Part shown: in pieces, positions 2,841 to 35,156 of the stretch
Position numbering within the stretch: the stretch's first letter is position 1
Layout of the letters: each line of letters begins with the position of its first letter
NCBI RefSeq assembly: GCF_006094435.1
Contig: NZ_CP034783.1
Span: forward strand, 208,501-272,500
Direction: 5' to 3'
DNA from: Pseudomonas sp. MPC6
GTDB lineage: Bacteria; Pseudomonadota; Gammaproteobacteria; Pseudomonadales; Pseudomonadaceae
DNA: 64,000 bases
Position numbers and translations under genes: made by a program
The notes under the pieces: generated by a model
What the model saw: the letters and a program-made list of their open reading frames with translations, nothing else
Database searches by the model: none
Told to the model about the DNA's origin: nothing

Positions 2841-2863
2841 GGTTGCCAGGTTAAATCGCGGGC

Positions 2864-2994
2864 AAAAAAAACCCCGGACTTCTATGGGGAGGGGGAAGTT
2901 CCGGGGTTCAAGTTCCGGACCGTTAGGGCGGGGTCCAGATATCTGCCAACACTTAACACAACATAGGAGCATCGAAAGGCTTCACCAGCCATTC
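2864..2994 (-). ncRNA. ersA: Probable ErsA small regulatory RNA
   Basis: An sRNA gene inferred from position and signals. In Pseudomonas the envelope-stress sRNA ErsA lies between engB and polA and is about 130 nt long. Here the minus strand carries an AlgU-type promoter (GAACTA, 17 nt, TCAGA), then roughly 131 nt without an ORF, ending in a perfect terminator: CCCCGGACTT-like stem (positions 2870-2908) followed by eight T residues (2864-2871). A C-rich loop (CTTCCCCCTCCCCAT) in the terminator arm could be a seed for base-pairing to G-rich Shine-Dalgarno regions. The start (about 2994) is estimated from the promoter. ErsA in P. aeruginosa represses algC and oprD; targets here are not known. 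Confidence 0.8.
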
Positions 2995-3231: not shown

Positions 3232-6000
3232 CTAGTGCGCCTCATCCCAGTTATTGCCGACACCCACCTCGACCAGCAGCGGCACATCCAGTTGCGCGGC
3301 CCCGCTCATGTGCACGCGAATTTCCTCACACACCTGGTCGACCAGGTCTTCACGCACCTCAAGCACCAATTCATCGTGCACCTGCAGGATGACTTTGGCG
3401 TCGAGGCCTGACGAGGTCAGCCAGTTGTCCACGGCGACCATGGCTTTCTTGATGATGTCCGCCGCGGTGCCCTGCATCGGCGCGTTGATCGCCGTGCGCT
3501 CGGCGCCTTTGCGCAGGGCCGGGTTTTTCGCGTTGATTTCCGGCAGGTACAGACGACGACCGAAGATGGTTTCGACAAAACCCTGCTCGGCGGCCTGGGC
3601 GCGGGTGCGCTCCATGTACGCCAGCACGCCGGGATATCGGGTGAAGTAGCGGTCGATATAAGCCTGGGACTGCTTGCGATCGACGCCAATCTGCTTGGCC
3701 AGGCCAAAGGCGCTCATGCCGTAGATCAAACCGAAGTTGATGGCCTTGGCGCTACGCCGTTGGTCGGTGGTGACCGCGTCCAGCTCAACGCCGAAGACTT
3801 CTGCCGCGGTGGCCTTATGCACGTCCAGGTCGTTGCGGAAGGCGTACAGCAAGCCTTCGTCCTTGGCCAGGTGAGCCATGATCCGCAGTTCGATCTGCGA
3901 ATAGTCCGCGGCCAGCAGTTTGTAGCCTTTTGGCGCGACGAACGCCTGGCGAATCCGCCGGCCTTCAGCGGTACGGATCGGAATGTTCTGCAGGTTTGGA
4001 TCGATCGACGACAAGCGTCCGGTGGCGGCGACGGCTTGCTGATAAGACGTATGGATGCGGCCGGTGCGAGCATTGATCTGCTCTGGCAAACGGTCGGTGT
4101 AGGTGCTTTTGAGTTTGCTCAGCGAGCGGTACTGCATCAGCACCTTGGGCAACGGGTAATCCTGTTCGGCCAGTTCGGCCAACACCGCTTCGGCCGTCGA
4201 GGCCTGGCCCTTGGCGGTTTTGCTGAGCACCGGCAAACCGAGCTTTTCGTAAAGGATCACCCCCAGTTGTTTCGGCGAGCCGAGGTTGAACTCTTCACCT
4301 GCGATGGCGAAGGCCTCGCGCTCCAGGGCGACCAGTTTCTCGCCCAACTCGACGCTCTGGATGCCCAGCAGGTTGGCGTCCACGAGCGCGCCCTGGCGTT
4401 CGATACGGGCCAGTACCGGCATCAGCGGCATTTCAATCTCGTTCAGCACTTTGCCCAGGCTTGGGGTGGCGGCCAGCTTTTCCTGCAACGCCAGGTGCAG
4501 GCGGAAGGTGACATCGGCATCTTCGGCGGCATAGGGACCCGCCAGCTCAAGCGAAATCTGGTCAAAGGTCAGCTGCTTGACGCCTTTGCCCGCGATCTCG
4601 TGAATGTCGGTCTTGCTTTGGCCCAGATACTTGAGCGCCAGGCTGTCCATGTCGTGACGGGTGGCCGTCGAGTCGAGTACGTAAGACTCGAGCATGGTGT
4701 CGTAGGCGATACCCCGGACAATGATCCCGTTGCTCTGATCGCCACCGATGGCGCAATTGGCCAGGATGTTGGTTTCGAACTTGGCGTGCTGGCCGACTTT
4801 CAGTTTATTCGGGTTTTCCAGCAGCGGCTTCAGCGCCAGCAGCACCGTGTCGCGATCCAGTTGTTCCGGCACGCCCATGTAGGAATGGGTCAGCGGAATG
4901 TAGGCTGCTTCGTTGGCTGCGACGGAAAACGACAGGCCTACCAGTTGCGAGTGCTGGGCATCGGTGCCATTGGTCTCGGTGACGAAGGCGATCAGCGGTG
5001 CCTTGGCGAGTTTGTCCAGCCAGGCTTCGAAGCGTTTCTGGTCGAGGATGGTTTCGTATTTCGCCGCGACGGCGCCCGGCTGCTCTTCAACGACCTCGAC
5101 AAGGTCCTGGCCCGAACGCTTGGCGTCGCGCTGGTTCTCGTCGAACCAGCTCTTGAATTCCAGCAGGGTGTAAAGCTCGGCGAGTTTGTCGTGGTCCGGC
5201 TTGCCCATTTGCAAGTCGTCCAGGCCGACATCCAGCGGTACGTCGATCTTGATCGTCGCCAGCCGGTAGGAAAGAAACGCCATCTCCTTGTGTTCTTCAA
5301 GCTTGGCCGGCAGGGTCTTGGCCCCGCGAATCGGCAGGGTCGGCACGATATCGAGCTGCGCGTAAAGCTCGGTCAGGCCGCCGTTCACACCGACCAGCAG
5401 CCCGGAAGCGGTCTTCGGGCCGATGCCCGGAACGCCCGGAATGTTGTCGGACGAATCGCCCATCAATGCCAGATAATCGATGATCTGCTCGGGAGCGACG
5501 CCGAATTTCTCCTTCACGCCCTCCACGTCCAGCGCGCTACCGGTCATGGTATTGACCAAGGTAATGTGCCCGTCGACCAGTTGCGCCATGTCCTTGTCGC
5601 CGGTGGAGATCACCACCGGGCGGTCGGCGGCCGCACTGCTGCGGGCCAGGGTGCCGATCACGTCGTCCGCTTCGACGTTGTCCACGCACAGCAATGGAAA
5701 GCCCAGGGCCTTGACGCTGGCGTGCAGTGGCTCGATCTGGACGCGCATGTCGTCGGGCATGCTCGGACGGTTGGCCTTGTATTCGGCGAACATTTCGTCG
5801 CGGAATGTCCCGCCCTTGGCGTCGAACACCACGGCGAACGGGCTGTCCGGGTACTGCTTGCGCAGACTCTTGAGCATGTTCAACACGCCTTTGACCGCAC
5901 CGGTCGGCAGGCCTTTGGACGTGGTGAGCGGTGGCAGGGCGTGAAACGCGCGGTACAGGTAAGAAGAACCGTCCACCAGGACGAGGGGGGCTTGGCTCAT
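3232..6000 (-). CDS. polA: DNA polymerase I
   Basis: Repair and Okazaki-fragment polymerase, 922 residues from [13 protein letters not shown]; the ATG four codons upstream (6012) is less likely by family comparison. Domains: 5'-3' exonuclease/FEN domain (1-290, with [11 protein letters not shown] and [14 protein letters not shown]), 3'-5' exonuclease domain (about 320-510), polymerase domain (about 520-922, motif A DYSQIELR, motif [15 protein letters not shown], motif C VHDEL). In the proofreading domain D434, Y489 and D493 are kept, but the first catalytic Asp (E. coli D355, in the DTET motif) is Val340 (FVTET), encoded GTC. Proofreading may therefore be weak or absent. It is divergent from the DUF2782 gene and thrB. 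Confidence 0.97.
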
Positions 6001-8482: not shown

Positions 8483-8965
8483 ATGCCTATAACACCGATC
8501 GCCAGCCGTCCCCACGACCACTCTCACTGCGTTCATAGCGCACTGTCTGAGGCCGATGCCCTGTGCACACGTCAGGGGCTGCGCCTGACCGCCTTGCGTC
8601 GGCGGGTGCTGGAACTGGTGTGGCAAAGCCACAAGCCATTGGGCGCCTACGACATACTCGCGGTGCTCAGCGAGCAGGATGGCCGCCGCGCCGCGCCACC
8701 GACGGTGTACCGCGCGCTGGATTTCCTGCTGGAAAACGGCCTCGTCCACCGCATTTCCTCATTGAACTCTTTCGTCGGCTGCAACCACCCGGGACATGCT
8801 CACCAAGGTCAGTTCCTGATCTGCCGCGAATGCCATGCCGCCATCGAGCTTGAACAAGCCTCCATCAGCGACGCGATCATCGGCAGCGCCAAAGAGGTCG
8901 GGTTCGTCGTCGAAGGCCAGACTGTGGAAGTGGTCGGTCTCTGTTCGGGTTGCCAGGGGGCTTGA
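8483..8965 (+). CDS. zur: Zinc uptake regulator Zur (Fur family)
   Basis: Zinc-sensing repressor of 160 residues. The N-terminal winged helix includes [14 protein letters not shown] and [15 protein letters not shown]. Metal sites are seen in the His-rich segment ([19 protein letters not shown]) and the C-terminal CSGC, giving two C-x2-C pairs for a structural zinc. The start is [15 protein letters not shown]. The gene heads the zur-znuC-znuB operon, its stop TGA overlapping the ATG of znuC. The same protein is called Np20 in P. aeruginosa. Confidence 0.94.
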
Positions 8966-9750
8966 TGAGCAACGCGCTGATCCGCCTCGAACAGGTTTGC
9001 GTCACCTTCGCCGGGCAAAACGTGCTGGATAACATCGAGCTGAGCGTCGTGCCGGGGCAGATCGTGACCCTGATCGGCCCCAATGGCGCTGGCAAGACCA
9101 CCTTGGTGCGCGCCGTGCTGGGCCTGCTGAAGCCGGACAGCGGCAGCGTCTGGCGCAAGCCGAAACTGCGGGTCGGCTACATGCCGCAAAAACTGCATGT
9201 CGATCCGACGCTGCCGCTGTCCGTGCTGCGCTTCTTGCGCCTGGTGCCGGGAGTGGATCGTGCCCGAGCCCTGGCCGCGCTCAAGGAGGTCGGGGCCGAG
9301 CAGGTCATCGATAGCCCGGTGCAAAGTGTTTCCGGCGGTGAAATGCAGCGCGTGCTGCTGGCCCGGGCATTGCTGCGCGAGCCGGAACTGCTGGTACTCG
9401 ATGAGCCGGTACAAGGCGTGGACGTGGCCGGTCAGGCCGAGCTTTACAGCCTGATTACCCGATTGCGCGACCGTCACGGTTGCGGGGTGTTGATGGTGTC
9501 CCATGACTTGCATCTGGTGATGAGCACCACCGACCAGGTGGTCTGCCTCAATCGTCACGTCTGCTGTTCCGGGCATCCCGAGCAGGTCAGCGGCGACCCG
9601 GCGTTCGTCGAGCTGTTCGGCAAGAACGCGCAGAGCCTGGCGATTTATCACCACCATCACGATCACGCCCATGACCTGCATGGTTCGGTGGTCAGCGCGG
9701 GCCCGGCGGCCTCTACCCACGTTCACGGAGATAGCTGCAAGCATGGCTGA
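8965..9750 (+). CDS. znuC: Zinc ABC transporter ATP-binding protein ZnuC
   Basis: ATPase of the zinc importer, 261 residues from [12 protein letters not shown]. Walker A is GPNGAGKTT, the ABC signature SGGEMQR, and Walker B LLVLDEP. The C-terminus is histidine-rich ([13 protein letters not shown], later HVHGD), as often found in ZnuC and possibly a zinc-buffering tail. Its ATG overlaps the zur stop and its 3' end overlaps the start of znuB by 8 bases, indicating tight translational coupling in the zur-znuCB operon. Confidence 0.95.
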
Positions 9751-10531
9751 TTTTCTGCTTTACGCCCTGCTTGCAGGTCTGGCCCTGGCCCTGGTCGCAG
9801 GCCCGCTGGGTTCGTTCGTGGTCTGGCGGCGCATGGCCTATTTTGGCGACACCCTGTCCCATGCCGCATTGCTCGGCGTGGCGCTGGGCTTTTTGCTGGA
9901 TGTTAGCCCGACTGTTGCGGTCACCGTGGGCTGTCTGTTGTTGGCCGTGTTGCTGGTGACCTTGCAACAGCGCCAACCGCTGGCGTCCGACACGCTGTTG
10001 GGAATTCTCGCCCCCAGCACCCTCTCTCTGGGCCTGGTGGTACTAAGCTTCATGCATGAAGTGCGGATCGACCTGATGGCCTATCTATTCGGCGACCTGC
10101 TGGCGATCAGTCCCACCGACCTGGCCTGGATACTCGGCGGCAGTGCGGGGGTGCTGGCCTTGCTGGTGACGTTGTGGCGGCCAATGCTGGCGATCACGGT
10201 CCATGAAGAGCTGGCCAAGGTGGAAGGTTTGCCGGTCGCAGCGTTGCGCCTGGCCCTGATGCTGTTGATCGCGGTAGTGATTGCGGTGGCGATGAAGATC
10301 GTCGGTGTATTGTTGATTACTTCGCTGCTGATCATCCCGGCGGCTGCGGCACAGCGTCACGCCCGGTCACCGGAGCAGATGGCGCTGGGCGCGAGCCTGC
10401 TGGGCATGCTCGCGGTCTGCGGCGGGCTGGCACTTTCATGGTTCAAGGACACGCCGGCGGGCCCGTCGATTGTGGTGGCTGCCGCCGCACTGTTTCTGCT
10501 GAGTTTTGTCCTGCCCCGTCGAGGGGTGTAG
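9743..10531 (+). CDS. znuB: Zinc ABC transporter permease ZnuB
   Basis: Integral membrane permease of the ABC-3 family, 262 residues from [17 protein letters not shown], with about eight hydrophobic segments. It pairs with ZnuC and receives zinc from ZnuA. The motif region [19 protein letters not shown] is typical of the family. The start overlaps the last 8 bases of znuC. An in-frame upstream extension inside znuC is rejected because it would encode no transporter sequence. Confidence 0.95.
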
Positions 10532-10568: not shown

Positions 10569-11285
10569 ATGAAGCCGTTCGCCTCCCGTTATCTGCTCCT
10601 TGTCGCATTTTCTCTGCTGCTGGGCGCTTGCCAAAGCACGCCACCGGCGGCCACCGAGCCTGCCGATGCACGGGCAACGGCCATTGCACAGCTGGAACAA
10701 AGCCTCGCCAGCAGCGAATTGGCGACCGCGGAAGGTCAACTGGCCACCTTGCAGGCCGAGTCGCCCAACGATCAATCCCTTGAGCAATATCAGCGGCAAC
10801 TGGCCGAAGCTTATCTGCGCCGTAGCCAGATCGTGCTGCAAAAAGGTGATGTGAACGCGGCCGCCACTGCCCTGAGCCGCGCCCGGGCGTTGATGCCCAA
10901 GGCTCCGGCGCTGACCGGCGGGGTCAACAACGCGATCGTCAATGCGCGCAAAGCCGAGCTGGACAGGGCTGAAGCGGCGCTTATGGCGGCCGAAGCCAAG
11001 CCGCAGGCCAAAGTCATCGACCCGACGGCCGAAAGCACCACGGTGGCGTTGAACCTGACGGATATGGCCAAGCTTCGCCGGCAACTGGACGCTATCGCCG
11101 CCGATGTGGTGAATTATCAGTGTGACGTGAGCATTCAGGCGCCGCGCACCCAGGATTATCCCTGGTTGGCGACCTTGCTGACCAAGCGGGTGAAGAAGCT
11201 GGATTCGGAGTTTGATCTGAATCTGGAAAAGCAGATTTTGCGTAACATTCCGGCGCAGATCGTTCTAAGTCCGCGTAAGCCCTAA
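10569..11285 (+). CDS. Predicted lipoprotein (PA5502 type)
   Basis: A 238-residue exported protein with a lipoprotein signal peptide: hydrophobic MKPFASRYLLLVAFSLLL and lipobox LGAC, Cys21 being the lipid anchor. The mature part is alanine- and leucine-rich and looks helical (tetratricopeptide-like or coiled, about 40-160), with one more Cys near residue 182. It lies 37 bases after znuB on the same strand and may be read through from it, but nothing in the sequence ties it to zinc. A gene of this kind occupies the same place between znuB and metN in P. aeruginosa. The function is unknown. Confidence 0.8.
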   Translation: MKPFASRYLLLVAFSLLLGACQSTPPAATEPADARATAIAQLEQSLASSELATAEGQLATLQAESPNDQSLEQYQRQLAEAYLRRSQIVLQKGDVNAAATALSRARALMPKAPALTGGVNNAIVNARKAELDRAEAALMAAEAKPQAKVIDPTAESTTVALNLTDMAKLRRQLDAIAADVVNYQCDVSIQAPRTQDYPWLATLLTKRVKKLDSEFDLNLEKQILRNIPAQIVLSPRKP

Positions 11286-28819: not shown

Positions 28820-29650
28820 TCAAATCAATGACATCTGACGCCCCGGCGGACAGAAGGCTGTGCAGTCCAGATTAAAACCTTCCCGACGATTGAGCCCCAG
28901 GCGTTTGATGGTTTTGGCAAAGCGTTGCGCCAGCAGGTCGGCAAATGGACCTTCGCCGCGCATCCGGCTGCCAAACCGGCTGTCGTAGAGCTCACCGCCA
29001 CGACTCTGGCGGATCAGGCTCAATACATGGGCCGCACGCTGAGGATAATGGGCCGCCAGCCATTCTTCGAACAGCGGCGCCACTTCCAGGGGCAGGCGCA
29101 GCATCATGTAGGCCGCACTTTGTGCGCCAGCGCCATGGGCTTCGGTGAGCAGGCTTTCGAGTTCGCTGTCGTTGATCATTGGAATCATCGGCGAGCACAG
29201 CACCCCCACCGGGATTCCCGCTTCACGCATCACCCTGATCGCTCGCAATCGGGCCTTGGGCGCAGCCGCGCGGGGTTCGAGGATGCGCTTGAGCTCGTCG
29301 TCCAGGGTGGTCAGGCTGATCATGACGGCCACCAGCCTTTGCTCAGCGAGTTCGGCCAGCAGGTCCAGATCGCGCAGGATCAGCGAGCCTTTGGTAATGA
29401 TGGTCACCGGATGGCGGTAACGCAGCAGTACCTCAAGGGTTTTGCGAGTGATCTTGTGTTCACGCTCGATGGGCTGGTAAGGATCGGTGTTGGAGCCCAG
29501 GTTGATCGGCGCGCATTGATAGCCGCGCCTGGAGAGTTGCTCCTCCAACACCTGCGCGGCGTTGGTCTTGGCGATCAGCTTGGTTTCGAAATCCAGCCCA
29601 GGCGACAGGTCCCAATAGGCATGGCTGGGCCGTGCGTAACAATAAATGCA
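28820..29650 (-). pseudogene. Split radical SAM (SPL/PA0069-type) gene, C-terminal part
   Basis: Codons for the last 276 residues of a spore-photoproduct-lyase-like radical SAM protein. It begins at the Cys codon of C-I-Y-C-Y-A-R (the second and third Fe-S cysteines) and ends QMSLI. The first 76 residues, up to the first Fe-S cysteine, are at 34929-35156, 5.28 kb away on the same strand. No start codon or ribosome site serves this part; the frame merely stays open into the antisense of the recombinase gene (to 30016). Joined to the other half it gives a 352-residue protein with C73-x3-C77-x2-C80. So the gene is interrupted, not decayed: I see no other lesion. Confidence 0.9.
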
Positions 29651-29660
29651 GCTATAATCT
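29641..29660. other. Left attachment junction (attL-like)
   Basis: Host codons for CIYC (minus strand, TGCATTTATTGT) end at 29650; element sequence starts at 29651. The likely 2-base core is TG (plus-strand CA at 29649-29650), also found at the right junction (34927-34928). Large serine recombinases exchange strands at a central dinucleotide, so such a short shared core is expected. Confidence 0.75.
29653..29658 (+). promoter_or_regulatory. Perfect -10 box three bases inside the left end
   Basis: TATAAT lies between the attachment core and the recombinase start (29693), with a ribosome site AGGAGA at 29681-29686. In the integrated state any -35 element must come from chromosomal DNA (29630-29635 reads CCGTGC, poor); in an excised circle it would come from the right end of the element. 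Expression could therefore differ between the two states. Confidence 0.55.
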
Positions 29661-29692
29661 GTGACTCGTACCGATACCGAAGGAGAGCCCTG

Positions 29693-31402
29693 ATGACTGG
29701 CGTTTACAGCTACATGAGATGGTCTACAGATCGTCAGGGCGAGAAATCCACAGAGGAGCGCCAGCGTGCAGCTCAGGAGGCGTTCTGCCGACATTACGGC
29801 TTGGTTTTGGTGGAAGAGGTCACGGACGCGGGCATGACCAGCTTTCGCGGTAAAAACGTTCATGAGGGCGAGTTGGGCAAGGTGATCCTCCGTGCCGAGT
29901 CTGGTGATATTCCCAAGGGGTCCATCCTCCTGTTCGAGAACATCGACCGGATGAGCCGGATGGGATTGTCCGATGCACTGACCTTGTTCCTTCGAATTCG
30001 TGAGGTCGGCTTGCAAGTTGGTATCGCCGACAAGCTTCAGCTCATCTCCCCCGGACCCCTCGACCTTGGCAATCTCCTAGGTGTGATCGTAGAGATGCAG
30101 AGGGCAAACGCTGAATCCGTTCGCAAGAGTGATTTCAGCCGGGACGGATGGAAGGCAAACCACACACGGATGGAAGCGGGAGAGGTTGTTACGGACAAGG
30201 TGGCGAACTGGCTCAAGGTTGAACGTGAGGGCGATGAACGCAAGATCGTAGTAATCGAGACTATCGCCAAACAGATTCGAGCGCTGTTCACCCTAGCACT
30301 GCAATACGGACTGTCTGAGACGTGCAGGAGAGTGAACGAGCAATTCGGCTCCAGCTGGAAGATTCACCAGTTGCAATACCTCCTGAAGAATCGTCGCTTG
30401 ATCGGTGAACACACAATCACCAACTTCAGCGAAGCAGCTGGCAAGAATATGCCCACCGATAGGGTGCTCACCGACTATTACCCGCTTGTCGTAGACAAGA
30501 ATCTATTCGCCGAGGTGCAGGCAGTCATTAGCCAGCGGAAACCATTCGCCGGGAGGCAGGATGCTTCCAACTTGAACATCTATCGCGGCCTGGTGAAGTG
30601 CAAGGCTTGCGGCGGGAGTGTCCGTTTCCAGTTCAAGAGTGGGAAGGAATACTTCATGTGTACCAACAGCATGACCAACAGTTGCACAGTGCCAGGAATC
30701 CGAAGTATCCGGGGCGAGCATCTTCGCCGCCTACTGTTCAAGTTCGAGCACTGGACCAATCTAAAGAGCTACTTCATGGCAGGATCAGAAGACCTGAAGA
30801 CACTTCGCCGGGAACGTGACGCTCTCCAGGCATTGATAACTAAGATCACTACGCGGACAGAACAGACGCAACAGCGCCTCATGGACGAAGACGACGAAGA
30901 CAAACAGGAGGTGTTCATTGCCATGCTCACGAAGGCCAAGAAGGATGACCGGGAGGCTAGAACGAAGCTAGCAGCAGCTGACACGCAACTGGCAGAGCTG
31001 GAGGATGCCTTCTCTATAGCAGGGCTGGACGTTGGTGGGCGTGTGGATTGGATGCTCAACGATAGGAGCGAGCCCGCCGCGCTCGAGCGAGCCAGGATCA
31101 ACCGCTACCTGACCAGCATCTTTGCAAAGCTGGTGATCGACTTCGACGCCAGGACCCTCACGACAGTGGTCAAGGACGCGCTCAAGGGCAAGGTGACGGA
31201 GTTACAAGCCAGCATCACCAGTCCGCCAGACAGACGCTTCACGGCACGTACCGGCCCCGTGAGGATTGCAGGAAAGAGTCGGCGTGTGCCGGGTGCGGCG
31301 GGCGAAGTGTTCACGCCGGACGAACTCGACTCATTCAAGTGCGTGCAGTGGAAAGCACCTATACCGCTGTTGTCGCCCGTGGTGAAGAAGCCCTTGCCTT
31401 GA
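29693..31402 (+). CDS. Large serine recombinase (site-specific integrase)
   Basis: A 569-residue recombinase starting MTGVYSYMRWSTDRQGEKS. Domains: resolvase/invertase catalytic domain (1-150) with the nucleophile Ser11 in Y7-M-R9-W-S11 and the NIDRMSR segment (83-89); Recombinase domain (about 165-290, ISQRKPF near its end); a zinc ribbon with C303-x2-C306 and C323-x7-C331; a charged coiled-coil (about 355-425); and a C-terminal tail. This is the standard large serine integrase layout. It lies 42 bases from the left attachment core, in the position typical of an integrase, and should carry out integration at the radical SAM site. A separate directionality factor for excision is not recognisable. 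Confidence 0.94.
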   Translation: MTGVYSYMRWSTDRQGEKSTEERQRAAQEAFCRHYGLVLVEEVTDAGMTSFRGKNVHEGELGKVILRAESGDIPKGSILLFENIDRMSRMGLSDALTLFLRIREVGLQVGIADKLQLISPGPLDLGNLLGVIVEMQRANAESVRKSDFSRDGWKANHTRMEAGEVVTDKVANWLKVEREGDERKIVVIETIAKQIRALFTLALQYGLSETCRRVNEQFGSSWKIHQLQYLLKNRRLIGEHTITNFSEAAGKNMPTDRVLTDYYPLVVDKNLFAEVQAVISQRKPFAGRQDASNLNIYRGLVKCKACGGSVRFQFKSGKEYFMCTNSMTNSCTVPGIRSIRGEHLRRLLFKFEHWTNLKSYFMAGSEDLKTLRRERDALQALITKITTRTEQTQQRLMDEDDEDKQEVFIAMLTKAKKDDREARTKLAAADTQLAELEDAFSIAGLDVGGRVDWMLNDRSEPAALERARINRYLTSIFAKLVIDFDARTLTTVVKDALKGKVTELQASITSPPDRRFTARTGPVRIAGKSRRVPGAAGEVFTPDELDSFKCVQWKAPIPLLSPVVKKPLP

Positions 31403-31704
31403 TTTGCCAATAACCTCTCCGAAACGTCTATGAAACCTATGCACAACCTATGGTTTTTGAACTGTTGCGGAGAGTGATGAATCGTGAGATGCCCGGTTTC
31501 TGGGGCCATAGCTTGACCGGGGCTTGATTGCGATACTGTTTTGAGTTTGCCGCACTACTAATGCATAATTTCGCCAAATTGAGTACAAGATAGGCGGCCC
31601 TCGGTCTCGACATAAGCCAATGCTGGCGCCGCTTCAAGTGTCCATTGGTCTGCTACTTGCGTTGTTCGATCAACCAGCAAGTATAGGAGGAGGACTCCGA
31701 GTGA
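31403..31704. other. 302-base gene-free stretch after the recombinase
   Basis: No ORF of note. An imperfect hairpin GCCCGGT/ACCGGGGC (31491-31523) could be a weak terminator, but the T-rich tract after it is broken. AT-rich sequence near 31545-31570 and a strong ribosome site AGGAGGAGG at 31685-31693 lead into the next gene. Confidence 0.5.
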
Positions 31705-32202
31705 GTGTGTTCATCTGTAGAGGGAGATCAGTGTGTGAGTGAAACCAGTGAAGAGAAGACCAAGAGAAAGTATCTGGCAGTATTCCGTTCCTACCAATGG
31801 TCATATCAGCATTCAATCTTCTACGATGATCCTGAACAAAGTCATGCCTTGCTTGATGACATGGTGAAATTCAAACAGGTACTCCGTAGACGGTGCCCTG
31901 ACCAGCCATTCCTTGTCCGTATCCAAGCTCTCAAGTCGGGTTCAAGATCACACCAAGCCTACCTGACCATCTTCACGACCAAGAAAGTCGAAGGTCTGCG
32001 AGAGTTGGCGAACAAAGTCTTCCCCGCGACCATGAACGTCTTGGGCAAGACGCTCTCCGTCGAGAAGCACGATTCGATCGCAAGGGCCATCGAGAAACAG
32101 AAGCCGCAAGACTTGTCCAAAGTTCTCGACAAGGCTGGGATCAATCGGTGGTCTGTCCTCAATAGGTCACAACTCCACCCGCTGCCACCTGCTGGCGCCT
32201 AG
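31705..32202 (+). CDS. Hypothetical protein in the mobile element (first of a pair)
   Basis: Up to 165 residues, not recognised. It is charged (KTKRKYLAVFRSYQWSYQH at the start; many Lys/Arg), has no signal peptide or membrane helix, and could bind nucleic acid, but no motif proves this. Start choice is open: GTG 31705 is 11 bases after AGGAGGAGG, while GTG 31735 (MSETSEEKTK) has AGGGAG nine bases upstream. A 13-codon ORF from GTG 31701 has ideal spacing and ends overlapping the second start, so it may be a leader peptide. The next gene follows after 17 bases, implying an operon. Confidence 0.62.
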   Translation: MCSSVEGDQCVSETSEEKTKRKYLAVFRSYQWSYQHSIFYDDPEQSHALLDDMVKFKQVLRRRCPDQPFLVRIQALKSGSRSHQAYLTIFTTKKVEGLRELANKVFPATMNVLGKTLSVEKHDSIARAIEKQKPQDLSKVLDKAGINRWSVLNRSQLHPLPPAGA

Positions 32203-32219
32203 ATAGGACAATTGCACAA

Positions 32220-32897
32220 ATGGGCTTTTTCTCGTTTTTCAAGCCAAGCCGTCCTCCTTCAGCTGACCTACCAAATTCTGAGGCAGTTCAAGCGTCTTCG
32301 ACTACCGATGAGCTAACAGCGCGACAGGTTTTCACTGATCCGACTCTTCTTGCATCGTGGATCAATGAGCACTACCTCGAGAGCATGCCGCTATCACAGG
32401 ACTATGACCTTCTGCCGAACGCAGAAGCGCGTGCAGACCTGGAGATCAGCGTCGCTCAACGTGATAAATGCCTGCGAGAGTATTCAGTTTTGCGGATATC
32501 AGGCGCTTCCTTGTTCGTGAAGCAACACTACGAGGACGCATTCTGGCTACAGTTCACAGATCAAATTTCTGTGTACTTGTTGAAGCATATCCAAACGGCA
32601 AATTTTGAAACCAGTACGGCTGCTGTTCGAGAGGCTATTGAGCAGTATGTTCTGGCTGGAGACGCGCAAGACCCGGAACTCATTTCTACGAGCTACCTGC
32701 AGCGCGTGTACGACGACAACCCAAACTATATACGGATGAAGGTTGGTGGTTTAGGGATGCTTGCCAACGACGCAATTCTCTCGTCATACGATGTTTTGCG
32801 AGATGCCTATTGCAACGTCATGCACGGCATGTCCTACGAAGCACTCAAATCAATAGATGATGCAAACCAGCAAGCCGAAGGGAGGAGTGAGCAGTAG
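32220..32897 (+). CDS. Hypothetical protein in the mobile element (second of a pair)
   Basis: A 225-residue acidic protein starting MGFFSFFKPSRPP, not recognised. The first ten residues are aromatic/hydrophobic and could attach to a membrane; residues 11-35 are Pro/Ser/Thr-rich and probably disordered; the rest looks helical. A weak AGGA lies 14 bases before the ATG. It is 17 bases downstream of another unknown gene, so the two are likely a functional pair. As cargo of a small integrative element they are candidates for a defence, stability or toxin-antitoxin role, but nothing in the sequence proves one. Confidence 0.65.
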   Translation: MGFFSFFKPSRPPSADLPNSEAVQASSTTDELTARQVFTDPTLLASWINEHYLESMPLSQDYDLLPNAEARADLEISVAQRDKCLREYSVLRISGASLFVKQHYEDAFWLQFTDQISVYLLKHIQTANFETSTAAVREAIEQYVLAGDAQDPELISTSYLQRVYDDNPNYIRMKVGGLGMLANDAILSSYDVLRDAYCNVMHGMSYEALKSIDDANQQAEGRSEQ

Positions 32898-32961
32898 CTC
32901 AGTCAGCTTGTATGAGCTGAACACGCTCATCGTAGGTGAGTCAGGTGCCTTCAACTCTTTA

Positions 32962-33084
32962 TGTATTCAATTGGGTATAGCCTGCTGACCACTGGTCAGA
33001 TGAATACAGTTACGTGGCTTCCACGGTTGTTTTTAGTGCGTTTGAAGCACAGAATGACAATCTCTAGACCCAGATGAATACAGT
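32962..33084. repeat. Three TGAATACA repeats upstream of the small resolvase
   Basis: CAGATGAATACAGT occurs twice as a direct repeat (32997-33010 and 33071-33084), and an inverted TGTATTCA lies at 32962-32969. The distances between the 8-base cores are 31 and 66 bases. The last copy ends just before the ribosome site of the resolvase gene. This layout fits either the subsites of a resolution (res) site or operators for self-repression, both usual upstream of resolvase genes. Confidence 0.65.
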
Positions 33085-33093
33085 AGGCCCCAA

Positions 33094-33633
33094 ATGGATA
33101 TCGGCTATGTGCGAGTCAGCTCAGTTGACCAGAACGAAGTAAGGCAGCTCGACGGCGTAACGCTCGACAAGGTTTACACGGACAAGTGCTCAGGCAAGGA
33201 CACAGACCGTCCCCAGCTCCGGGCGCTGCTAGATGTAGTCCGTACCGGTGACACCGTTGTTGTGCACAGCATCGATAGGCTGGCCCGTAGTCTGTCAGAC
33301 CTCTTGAACCTGGTGCAGTCGTTGAACGAGCAGGGTGTCTCGGTGAGGTTCTGCAAAGAGAACTTGCACTTCACTGGTGCAGACGACAAATACCAGAACC
33401 TGATGCTTCAGATGATGGGTGCTGTGGCAGAGTTCGAACGCTCGATGATCCGTGAACGCCAGAAGGAAGGCATCGCCCAAGCGAAGCTTGACGGGAAGTA
33501 TAAGGGTGGTGTGAAGACCACAGACGCCGATGCAATCCGCGCTCATGTTGCCAATGGTTCATCCTACCGGGACACCGCAAAGAGTCTTGGTGTGAGCCTG
33601 TCCACTGTTCAACGGGCCATGAAAACCGCCTGA
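33094..33633 (+). CDS. Small serine recombinase (resolvase/invertase family)
   Basis: A 179-residue recombinase. The catalytic domain has Y5-V-R7-V-S9 (Ser9 nucleophile) and the IDRLARSLSDLL segment, the long dimer helix runs through QMMGAVAEFERSMIRERQKEGI, and a C-terminal helix-turn-helix (about 145-179, GSSYRDTAKSLGVSLSTVQRAM) binds DNA. Size and layout match Tn3 resolvase/Gin-type enzymes. Repeats upstream may be its sites. Its presence beside a large serine integrase suggests dimer resolution or an inversion function for the element, or a second mobile remnant. Confidence 0.93.
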   Translation: MDIGYVRVSSVDQNEVRQLDGVTLDKVYTDKCSGKDTDRPQLRALLDVVRTGDTVVVHSIDRLARSLSDLLNLVQSLNEQGVSVRFCKENLHFTGADDKYQNLMLQMMGAVAEFERSMIRERQKEGIAQAKLDGKYKGGVKTTDADAIRAHVANGSSYRDTAKSLGVSLSTVQRAMKTA

Positions 33634-33654
33634 CCAATATCGCAAGACCCATAT

Positions 33655-33685
33655 GCCCGCCTTGAGCGGGCTTTGTCGTTCTTTA
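33655..33685 (+). terminator. Terminator after the small resolvase
   Basis: Stem GCCCGC/GCGGGC with a 5-base loop, then a T-rich tract (TTTGTCGTTCTTT). It starts 21 bases after the resolvase stop. Confidence 0.75.
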
Positions 33686-34068
33686 GAGCCAGATCGCATA
33701 GGATGATAAGTGTAATGCTCCGTCAGAGCTTCTGTATGGCCTAAGGGGCGACGCTCTCTGCTATAGGTATACACTGGTAGCAGGTAGAGGCTTGTGCGGC
33801 CTTAGAAAGCCTCTGAGAGAGTTCTGGGTGGTGGCGCAGGTTATTCGAGAATCATTCACGTTTTGGTGAAGGCCACTTCTTTGCTCGCTTGATTGATCCG
33901 GTGTCGGGCTGGAAATCTCGCCGATTCACAAGGTGCAGAAAAAAATACGGGGAAATGGTGGTCTGCCAGATACTCGCCTCAGGTTATTTTCCTGGGTCAG
34001 CTACTGGAATCACCCAACGGTGCAAAGCTCCTGGCGGCGGGGATTTGAAATCCTGGAAAACTCGCCCT
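33686..34068. other. 383-base gene-free stretch in the mobile element
   Basis: No convincing ORF: the longest frame (33889-34092, plus) has no ribosome site or family-like sequence and runs into the antisense of the next gene. An AGAGGCTT/AAGCCTCT inverted repeat lies at about 33788-33815. Nothing else is recognised. Confidence 0.45.
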
Positions 34069-34443
34069 TCATTTGTTGCAAGGGAAAGCTGACCTGAACG
34101 CTTCAATTGAGAGCAGGGCCCCACTTTTATGCAGTGAGGCAGGATGCTCAGACATGTATCGGGTAACAATCCTTACTGCCTGCGTGTACTGGATGCCATT
34201 CACCGGGAAGCATGCCCTTGCCTCTTTAGGGAGGTCGTAATAGAGGTTAGTCATGGTATTCATAACGGCTGCAACCGTGCCGAAACAGAATCCAGCGTTA
34301 AAATCGGGGGCGGAGTTAGGTGCAATCTCCATCGACCTAAGACTGGCTTGGCATTGAGTCAAAAGCTCGTTCCCATCAGCCATGGCGGCACTACCACTTA
34401 CCATCAACCCAATCAGTGCAGCCGCTCCAATCCATGCCTTCAT
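34069..34443 (-). CDS. Rap1a/Tai family secreted immunity-like protein
   Basis: A 124-residue protein with a signal peptide (MKAWIGAAALIGLMVSGSAAMA) and a mature part that fits the Rap1a/Tai family: C31, then GFC53FGT, C78 in CFPVNGI, a QAVRIVTRYMSEHP helix, and the ending EAFRSAFPC122. Four cysteines would give two disulfides in the periplasm. Members of this family include immunity proteins that protect the periplasm against type VI amidase effectors (Tae4/Ssp type). A good ribosome site (AAGGA) precedes the start. No effector or secretion gene is nearby, so it would be an orphan immunity gene carried as cargo. It is the only minus-strand gene of the element. Confidence 0.78.
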   Translation of the reverse strand: MKAWIGAAALIGLMVSGSAAMADGNELLTQCQASLRSMEIAPNSAPDFNAGFCFGTVAAVMNTMTNLYYDLPKEARACFPVNGIQYTQAVRIVTRYMSEHPASLHKSGALLSIEAFRSAFPCNK

Positions 34444-34631
34444 GCTGAAATCCTTTTGAATGAGCGGGCATGTTACCGGGTGCAGTGGCTGGCTGCCATC
34501 ACCGGGTTCAAGCTAGCGAGACAAGCAAGCTCATATGCACGGATCGCACAGGGGCATGTGATTTTTATACTCCAGTGGAATAGCGTCGTATGATATAGAA
34601 GAGAGCAGCCCCACCGATGGGAGTCTAGCTT

Positions 34632-34896
34632 TTACGTGGCAAGCGGAGCTTGCGGGTAGTTCCCGTTGAAGAAGATCAGCGTTGAGGTTCCCTCATACAT
34701 ACCGCCCCAATAGAAAAGCCCTTTGCCTTGAACGTGTGACAGTCGTCAGCTCACGCTGACAAGTGATCCCCTGAATGCGAGCGCATTCGTCTGTGCACTC
34801 TCCCAGCTCAAGAGCCAGGAGCGGATTTGTGAAATCTAGGTATTGGTTCGAGGTACACCCTGGACGGTGAGGGTGATGCTCCTGGGAAGCTTGTTT
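34632..34896 (-). other. Possible remnant of a small coding region (two frames)
   Basis: On the minus strand one frame is open from 34896 and contains PGCTSNQYLDFTNPLLALE and GECTDECARIQGITCQ; a second overlapping frame then gives GKGLFYWGGMYEGTSTLIF and ends at a TAA (34632-34634). Residue make-up looks protein-like, and a single frameshift near 34735-34750 would join them, but no ATG start or ribosome site exists. It may be a decayed gene or chance. Confidence 0.25.
34734..34798. repeat. Two adjacent hairpins inside an outer imperfect stem
   Basis: GTCAGC-TCAC-GCTGAC (34745-34760) and GAATGC-GAGC-GCATTC (34773-34788) are perfect 6-bp hairpins with 4-base loops. The flanks GTGTGACAG (34734-34742) and CTGTGCAC (34791-34798) can pair imperfectly, giving a three-way-junction shape in single-stranded DNA or RNA. 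It lies 130 bases from the right attachment core. Confidence 0.6.
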
Positions 34897-34918
34897 TCAG
34901 TATCTGTACTAATTACAT

Positions 34919-34938
34919 AACATGCTCAACCGTGCTCG
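34919..34938. other. Right attachment junction (attR-like)
   Basis: Host codons for GCEHG (minus strand ...GAGCACGGT) stop at 34929 and the shared TG core occupies 34928-34927. The next element base, A, turns the Cys codon TGC into the stop TGA, closing the 76-residue N-terminal fragment exactly at the junction. Confidence 0.75.
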
Positions 34939-35156
34939 CACCCGCGATAGGGATTGATCGAGCGATCGAAGGGCAAATCCGGCGAGTTGTTACGGGTGAT
35001 GATGGTTTTCGCCGTCTCGATCCGCACCTCCGTGCCTTGGGTCATCGGCGCTTCCTGATACCAGCCGTCATCTTCGGCCACCGAACGGCTCGGGGCGAAG
35101 CGGTTGTGCGGGTTGGTGGCGGTGCCGCGACCGCGCGGGGGAAGAGGGATGGACAT
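34926..35156 (-). pseudogene. Split radical SAM (SPL/PA0069-type) gene, N-terminal part
   Basis: First 76 residues of the radical SAM protein (MSIPLPPRGRGTATNPHNRF ... INPYRGCEHG), ending at a TGA created by the insertion. It holds only the first cysteine (C73) of the Fe-S motif, so any product would be inactive. The start is at 35156 with AGAGG seven bases before it, and a LexA box lies directly upstream. Intact homologues (called DNA repair photolyase-like, or PA0069 family) are about 350 residues long. The gene follows the gluconate dehydrogenase-like operon on the same strand by 71 bases. Confidence 0.9.

Follow-up and report, generated by a model that had tools for sequence, protein, structure and literature searches.

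A large serine integrase islet splits a PA0069-family radical SAM gene at its cluster motif in Pseudomonas

Integrative and mobilizable elements (IMEs) and islands lying in protein-coding genes, such as the dusA islands, pair a site-specific integrase and variable cargo with a conserved target gene; the integrases of dusA islands are tyrosine recombinases. Serine recombinase elements that split a gene, which is rejoined on their excision, are represented by skin, SP-beta/spsM and gin (PMC5595907). These are excised during sporulation, with a recombination directionality factor (RDF) where one is known (GirC together with GirX for gin), and gin, like the element described below, has no phage genes. 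Samy, a Streptomyces prophage, uses a serine integrase whose attachment site attB falls within a radical SAM gene belonging to the Rv2578c family (PMC12924846). Here we describe a 5,278-bp element in a 64,000-nucleotide stretch of DNA from Pseudomonas sp. MPC6 (contig NZ_CP034783.1, positions 208,501 to 272,500; the whole stretch is called the window), where it occupies positions 29651-34928 between the two parts of a radical SAM gene of the PA0069 family. Very probably it is an islet of a large serine recombinase clade that integrates at the Gly76/Cys77 boundary of that gene. Our reading is of a mobile, site-specific islet whose insertion inactivates a gene that the host can do without, rather than of a developmental element of the skin type.

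The gene is interrupted between Gly76 (GGT) and Cys77 (TGC), within the CxxxCxxC motif. Because the break falls inside this motif (GC-EHG-C-IY-C), the first cluster cysteine is separated from the other two. The gene parts, the dinucleotide found at both ends of the element and the integrase are as follows.

28820..29650, minus strand: C-terminal part of the radical SAM gene, codons 77-352 plus stop, from Cys77 (NF033668, 398.9 bits, model positions 71-347)
34929..35156, minus strand: N-terminal part of the radical SAM gene, codons 1-76, ending ...RGCEHG (NF033668, 80.3 bits, model positions 1-70)
29649..29650, no strand: crossover dinucleotide, copy 1, CA on the plus strand and TG in the gene, where it starts the Cys77 codon; midpoint of one attachment site (junction comparison, attP reconstruction)
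34927..34928, no strand: second copy of the crossover dinucleotide, midpoint of the second attachment site (junction comparison, attP reconstruction)
29693..31402, plus strand: large serine recombinase (integrase), 569 aa (PF00239, PF07508, PF13408)

Both gene parts match the same NCBIfam model, NF033668 (rSAM_PA0069), and a search with the gene family gave no further match in the window's genome (G000). Deleting 29651-34928 leaves 1,059 nt, or 353 codons including the stop (352 residues), with the frame open throughout, and the rejoined product gives a gap-free alignment with its counterpart in the best-matching relative (G005), where the gene is intact; 339 of 352 residues are identical. As the gene stands, reading from the N part into the element meets a stop at once (open reading frame (ORF) with stop, 34926-35156, minus strand). 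Since CA is present on the plus strand at both 29649-29650 and 34927-34928, the ends of the element can be placed equally well at 29649-34926 or at 29651-34928. The integrase has Resolvase, Recombinase and zinc-ribbon domains, the last with a match of 23.5 bits, under the Pfam cut-off of 25.3; its Arg9, Ser11, Arg86 and Arg89, which we take to be the catalytic residues, are invariant across 26 aligned sequences, the query included. These matches, codons and residues bear out two claims of the original prediction, namely that the two parts belong to one radical SAM gene with exact in-frame ends and that a complete large serine recombinase lies at the edge of the element.

The original prediction had pointed to the same codons in other genomes as the place to look for the recombinase, and related recombinases do recur there. 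In a sample of 398 Pseudomonas genomes, integrases of the clade (E<=1e-70) were found in nine (G000, G009, G107, G123, G131, G155, G257, G270 and G321; 35-75% identity for the eight other than the window's), and every one of these genomes has the gene interrupted at exactly the Gly76/Cys77 boundary. Three genomes outside the sample carry an identical split (L029/G434, L032/G435 and L033/G436). Because the same boundary is split in these 12 genomes, the window's included, the split is not a product of chance. Ten of the 12 hold complete elements of 4.7-12.7 kb on a single contig; in G257 and G270 the gene halves are on separate contigs.

The gene family is present in 375 of the 398 genomes and gave no match in 23, some of which are incomplete assemblies. 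Among the 366 other gene-bearing genomes, 6 are irregular and 360 have one match, with E no higher than 2.1e-143; this was taken to mean a whole gene, since a C half alone gives about 1e-120, with match positions known for part of them. Several cases were not counted as splits at the site: the gene is broken elsewhere in G116, G120 and G416, lies in pieces on two contigs at a different place in G402, and is a short fragment in G261. G137, split 3 bp away and without an integrase match on the stretches looked at, is not an exact split either.

A search of 95 genomes gave an integrase match in 14, namely G000, G009 and 12 with distant integrases, whose best matches are at most 32% identical (one short second match, 37%); 11 of these 12 have a single gene match, i.e. 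an unsplit gene, and G014 is without the gene. Single-protein integrase scans of wider collections of genomes and viral contigs returned no relatives. An alignment-based search returned seven genome loci, six of them in Pseudomonas at this site and one in Bradyrhizobium (integrase 28% identity, without a match to the radical SAM gene), and a viral search of the same kind returned two weak loci. Integrase matches on plasmids came to 26 records, all below 30% identity among the 20 matches listed, and those in phages to 20 records, all below 30%.

Comparison of the junctions points to TG as the crossover. The element side starts with TG at the nine N junctions compared, as it does for elements E050 and E051 in a separate check, and TG opens all 11 C parts compared; it is what all junctions have in common, with some single loci sharing further bases (by eye). 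We reconstructed attP by closing the element ends on each other. In the window, 14 of 24 arm positions are symmetric about a central CA, which is TG read on the opposite strand, and the arms are imperfect inverted repeats in all ten complete elements, with 12-17 of 24 positions symmetric (shuffle p 0.0002-0.011 across the ten, uncorrected). The integrase domains, the palindromic attP with its shared 2-bp core and the single site of the clade all fit the class of large serine integrases. The integrase would join the palindromic attP of the excised circle to the attB of the gene, and joining at the 2-bp core, TG in the gene strand, would part the first cluster cysteine from its two partners. The host's radical SAM enzyme would thereby be expected to lose its function for as long as the islet is in place, and excision, given a directionality factor, would restore the gene exactly.

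One sister element, L032:9945-20256 (= L057:2054-12365), sits at the same codon boundary in the opposite orientation, and its core in integrase orientation is TG, not CA. Over the ORF parts compared, its integrase is 89% identical to that of E031 (448 aa) and 96% to that of E033 (287 aa), and the E031 and E033 elements have the usual orientation. Reversal of the core together with reversal of the insertion is what a non-palindromic 2-bp core predicts, so that L032/L057, judged by its orientation and core, is a natural case of core-dependent insertion polarity. The core dinucleotide of large serine recombinases has been described as modular (PMC10083194). In another sister, L033:10001-11781 (E033), the integrase gene is frameshifted, and this copy is therefore probably locked in. 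Unusual DNA conservation of attB found no support as a reason for the choice of target: by comparison of 80 intact genes, its 42-nt segment ranks 236 of the 950 in the gene.

Samy resembles the islet in that a serine integrase targets a radical SAM gene of a related family. The window's C part scores 193 bits against NF038135, under the model cut-off of 430, and the N and C parts both match Rv2578c models, under their cut-offs. Samy differs in being a prophage in an actinobacterium, and its target codon is probably a different one, because its 12-bp repeat, which reads Asp-Thr-Pro in one frame, seems unfit for codons 76/77. Among the papers listed in searches of the open-licence PMC literature, none seemed to deal with this site in Pseudomonas. 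The original prediction's "undescribed" has to be narrowed, because a prophage in an Rv2578c-family radical SAM gene has already been published.

The cluster motif seems to have served as an entry point more than once, given the position of an intein and a second split close by. In NF038136, the intein-containing Rv2578c model, our N part ends at model position 71 and residue 4 of the C part falls at 335; placed by these profile coordinates alone, an Rv2578c-family intein appears to sit at or within about 1 residue of the same point, before the Cys77 equivalent. An intein differs in being a protein-level insertion that is removed by splicing, and only the insertion spot is shared. The break in G137 lies 3 bp off, between GAGCAT and GGC (L053:2924-10228 and L052:4162-15000); three tyrosine recombinases are encoded on the N-side contig, along with a VPA1267-family match of 39 bits (cut-off 90). 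This may be an unrelated class of element at nearly the same site, its ends being on different contigs so that it may not be one element. The weak VPA1267-family match may point, by a link that we presume, to a strand-biased circularizing element. The other kind considered for G137 is the GInts (PMC5385486).

The cargo of the islet follows the integrase. Counted from the C part of the split gene, the order is large serine recombinase, p2, p3, a tnpR-like resolvase and, on the opposite strand, a Rap1a-type protein.

31735..32202, plus strand: p2, 155 aa, with a predicted Rep-like (HUH-type) fold (structure prediction, homologue search)
32220..32897, plus strand: p3, a 225-aa cargo protein without a known family (library scans, slot comparison)
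32997..33084, no strand: two copies of CAGATGAATACAGT, at 32997-33010 and 33071-33084, just upstream of the resolvase gene
33094..33633, plus strand: small serine recombinase/resolvase, tnpR-like, 179 aa (PF00239, 131 bits)
34069..34443, minus strand: Rap1a-type protein, 124 aa (PF18602, 49.6 bits)

The HxH motif is not conserved in p2, for which 135 homologues were found, and neither p2 nor p3 matches PHROGs. The resolvase gene is about 68% identical in DNA to plasmid tnpR/recombinase genes, and phage records match the element at the DNA level only in this gene (10 records). The CAGATGAATACAGT pair could be subsites of a resolution site, and a 14-mer in two copies could also be chance. Elsewhere in the window lies the Pseudomon-1/ErsA small RNA (2856-2972, minus strand; Rfam RF01719, 130 bits), which is ordinary.

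Pfam scans of the window element's five main proteins found no relaxase and no phage structural or lysis genes. By this measure it would be neither an IME with a relaxase of its own nor a prophage, although it is like IMEs and islands in having a site-specific integrase, variable cargo and a conserved target gene. Its sisters are more varied. In the cargo of related elements (20 proteins, G137 contigs included, scanned against Pfam, and fewer against other libraries), E037 encodes a MobA/VirD2-like relaxase, with relatives in E038 (81%), E039 (40%) and E040 (39%), and a MobC-like protein just under the Pfam cut-off, an IME-like trait on the sister side. E050 has a tape-measure protein above the Pfam cut-off and E051 a weaker tail match, both of which speak against excluding prophages at the level of the family. 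The Pseudomonas chlororaphis 14D6 element (E028) carries Abi_alpha (PDC-S47 in PADLOC) and a Rap1a relative (38% to the window's), the N-side contig of G270 carries AbiTii and a Replicase-family gene, and E033 encodes a SPOR-domain protein.

p2 occurs in 7 of the 398 genomes at E<=1e-20, or at eight loci with the more distant E031, and all but one of the eight, namely the window, L028, L031 and L066-L069, have a small serine recombinase at most about 1.5 kb downstream. L070 has a 184-aa tyrosine recombinase ORF near p2 in place of the serine resolvase (at L069 and L070 the recombinase was identified by eye). The slot between p2 and the resolvase varies: its occupant is p3 in the window and Abi_alpha in E028, L066 has a 169-aa ORF there and L068 an opposite-strand 268-aa ORF, E031 has small ORFs only, and in L067 and L069 the slot is about 0.25-0.3 kb without a large ORF. 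The integrase varies too. L066:4463-8836 joins the p2/resolvase module to a different serine integrase, between parts of a ComM/YifB-like gene at 3794-4447 and 8836-9759; L068 has a tyrosine recombinase as its integrase; and the serine-integrase element with p2 at L069:9269-11249 adjoins an ORF fragment of an FKBP-type peptidyl-prolyl isomerase at 10911-11249 (all three by eye). We read p2, slot and resolvase as a portable module that does not include the integrase. Roles for p2, p3 and the resolvase are suggested by these comparisons, and, by analogy with the slot that holds Abi_alpha in E028, our guess is that p3 is a candidate phage-defence gene.

How far does the likeness to skin extend? 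The original prediction compared the islet with skin and spsM, and the geometry does agree, as does the expectation that excision would restore the frame; the islet departs from skin, SP-beta/spsM and gin in its non-sporulating host, in that no RDF was found and in being known here from sequence alone. A programmed or condition-induced switch, in which some cells of a population lose the islet and regain the enzyme, as with skin, SP-beta/spsM, gin or active lysogeny, could draw on the exact restoration that rejoining allows, on the complete integrase and on the stop-free halves and low dN/dS of the 12 split genes. Such a switch is nonetheless improbable. Conservative serine integrases ordinarily leave an exact join without loss of bases, so that such a join is not by itself a sign of programmed rearrangement. 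With precise ends as the default, the regulated, gene-restoring part of the likeness is unsupported, because insertion is sporadic (9 of 398 genomes), cargo is unlike between elements, the integrase of the L033 sister is frameshifted, no good RDF candidate was found and the genus, Pseudomonas, does not form spores. RDFs are diverse in sequence; no companion ORF of at least 60 aa besides the integrase is common to all compared elements, and no good directionality-factor candidate emerged from a comparison of smaller ORFs among the matches listed. p2, for its part, accompanies other integrases as well, and the comparison did not find it in E050/E051. We know of no developmental role for the radical SAM gene.

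At the other extreme, the element could be a fixed remnant, immobile and with the gene permanently lost, its halves intact only through recent insertion. The frameshifted integrase of E033/L033 and the seeming dispensability of the gene across the genus, with its 23 genomes without a match, favour this reading, but the window's integrase, both its attachment sites and both gene halves look intact, and we consider it unlikely while leaving it some weight. An assembly artefact or a chance neighbouring of two gene fragments has nothing found in its favour beyond the separate contigs of G257 and G270, and is refuted by the ten complete single-contig elements, the window's among them, with the same boundary in different genomes; we give it practically no credence. 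Against our own preference for a mobile islet that knocks out a dispensable gene stand several observations. The mobility of the window copy is something that we infer, and p3 has no PADLOC match, its defence role being suggested by position alone. In all 12 split genes both halves are free of internal stops, and their median dN/dS of 0.056 (n=12) is not significantly above the 0.035 of intact genes (n=78; Mann-Whitney p=0.40), a state that would also fit occasional restoration. For two of them, G009 and G321, the beginning of the N half does not align to an ATG, and the start is untraced. The dN/dS comparison set each gene against the nearest of 80 intact genes, drawn from more than 140 full-length matches listed, with intact pairs at dS above 0.1, and it is a weak test because the nearest intact genes lie at dS 0.25-1.3. 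Recent insertion and occasional restoration are both compatible with the state of the split genes.

A bolder version, in which islets leave and re-enter the cluster motif conditionally, toggling the enzyme and carrying a swappable defence gene, strikes us as a long shot. If true, this reversible knock-out would be a form of active lysogeny in which the islet is not a phage and its portable module can be driven by various integrases at various genes, and, if excision is regulated, the islet would be a developmental-style gene switch outside the spore formers. On the reading that we prefer, a mobile islet at a dispensable gene, a clade of serine integrases has made the cluster motif of a radical SAM gene its regular site in Pseudomonas, and this integrase, together with its attB, might be developed into a tool for integration at a single site in this genus. 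The p2/slot/resolvase module occurs alongside several serine integrases and, in one case, a tyrosine integrase, which suggests a compact platform for carrying cargo; in one element the slot holds an abortive-infection gene.

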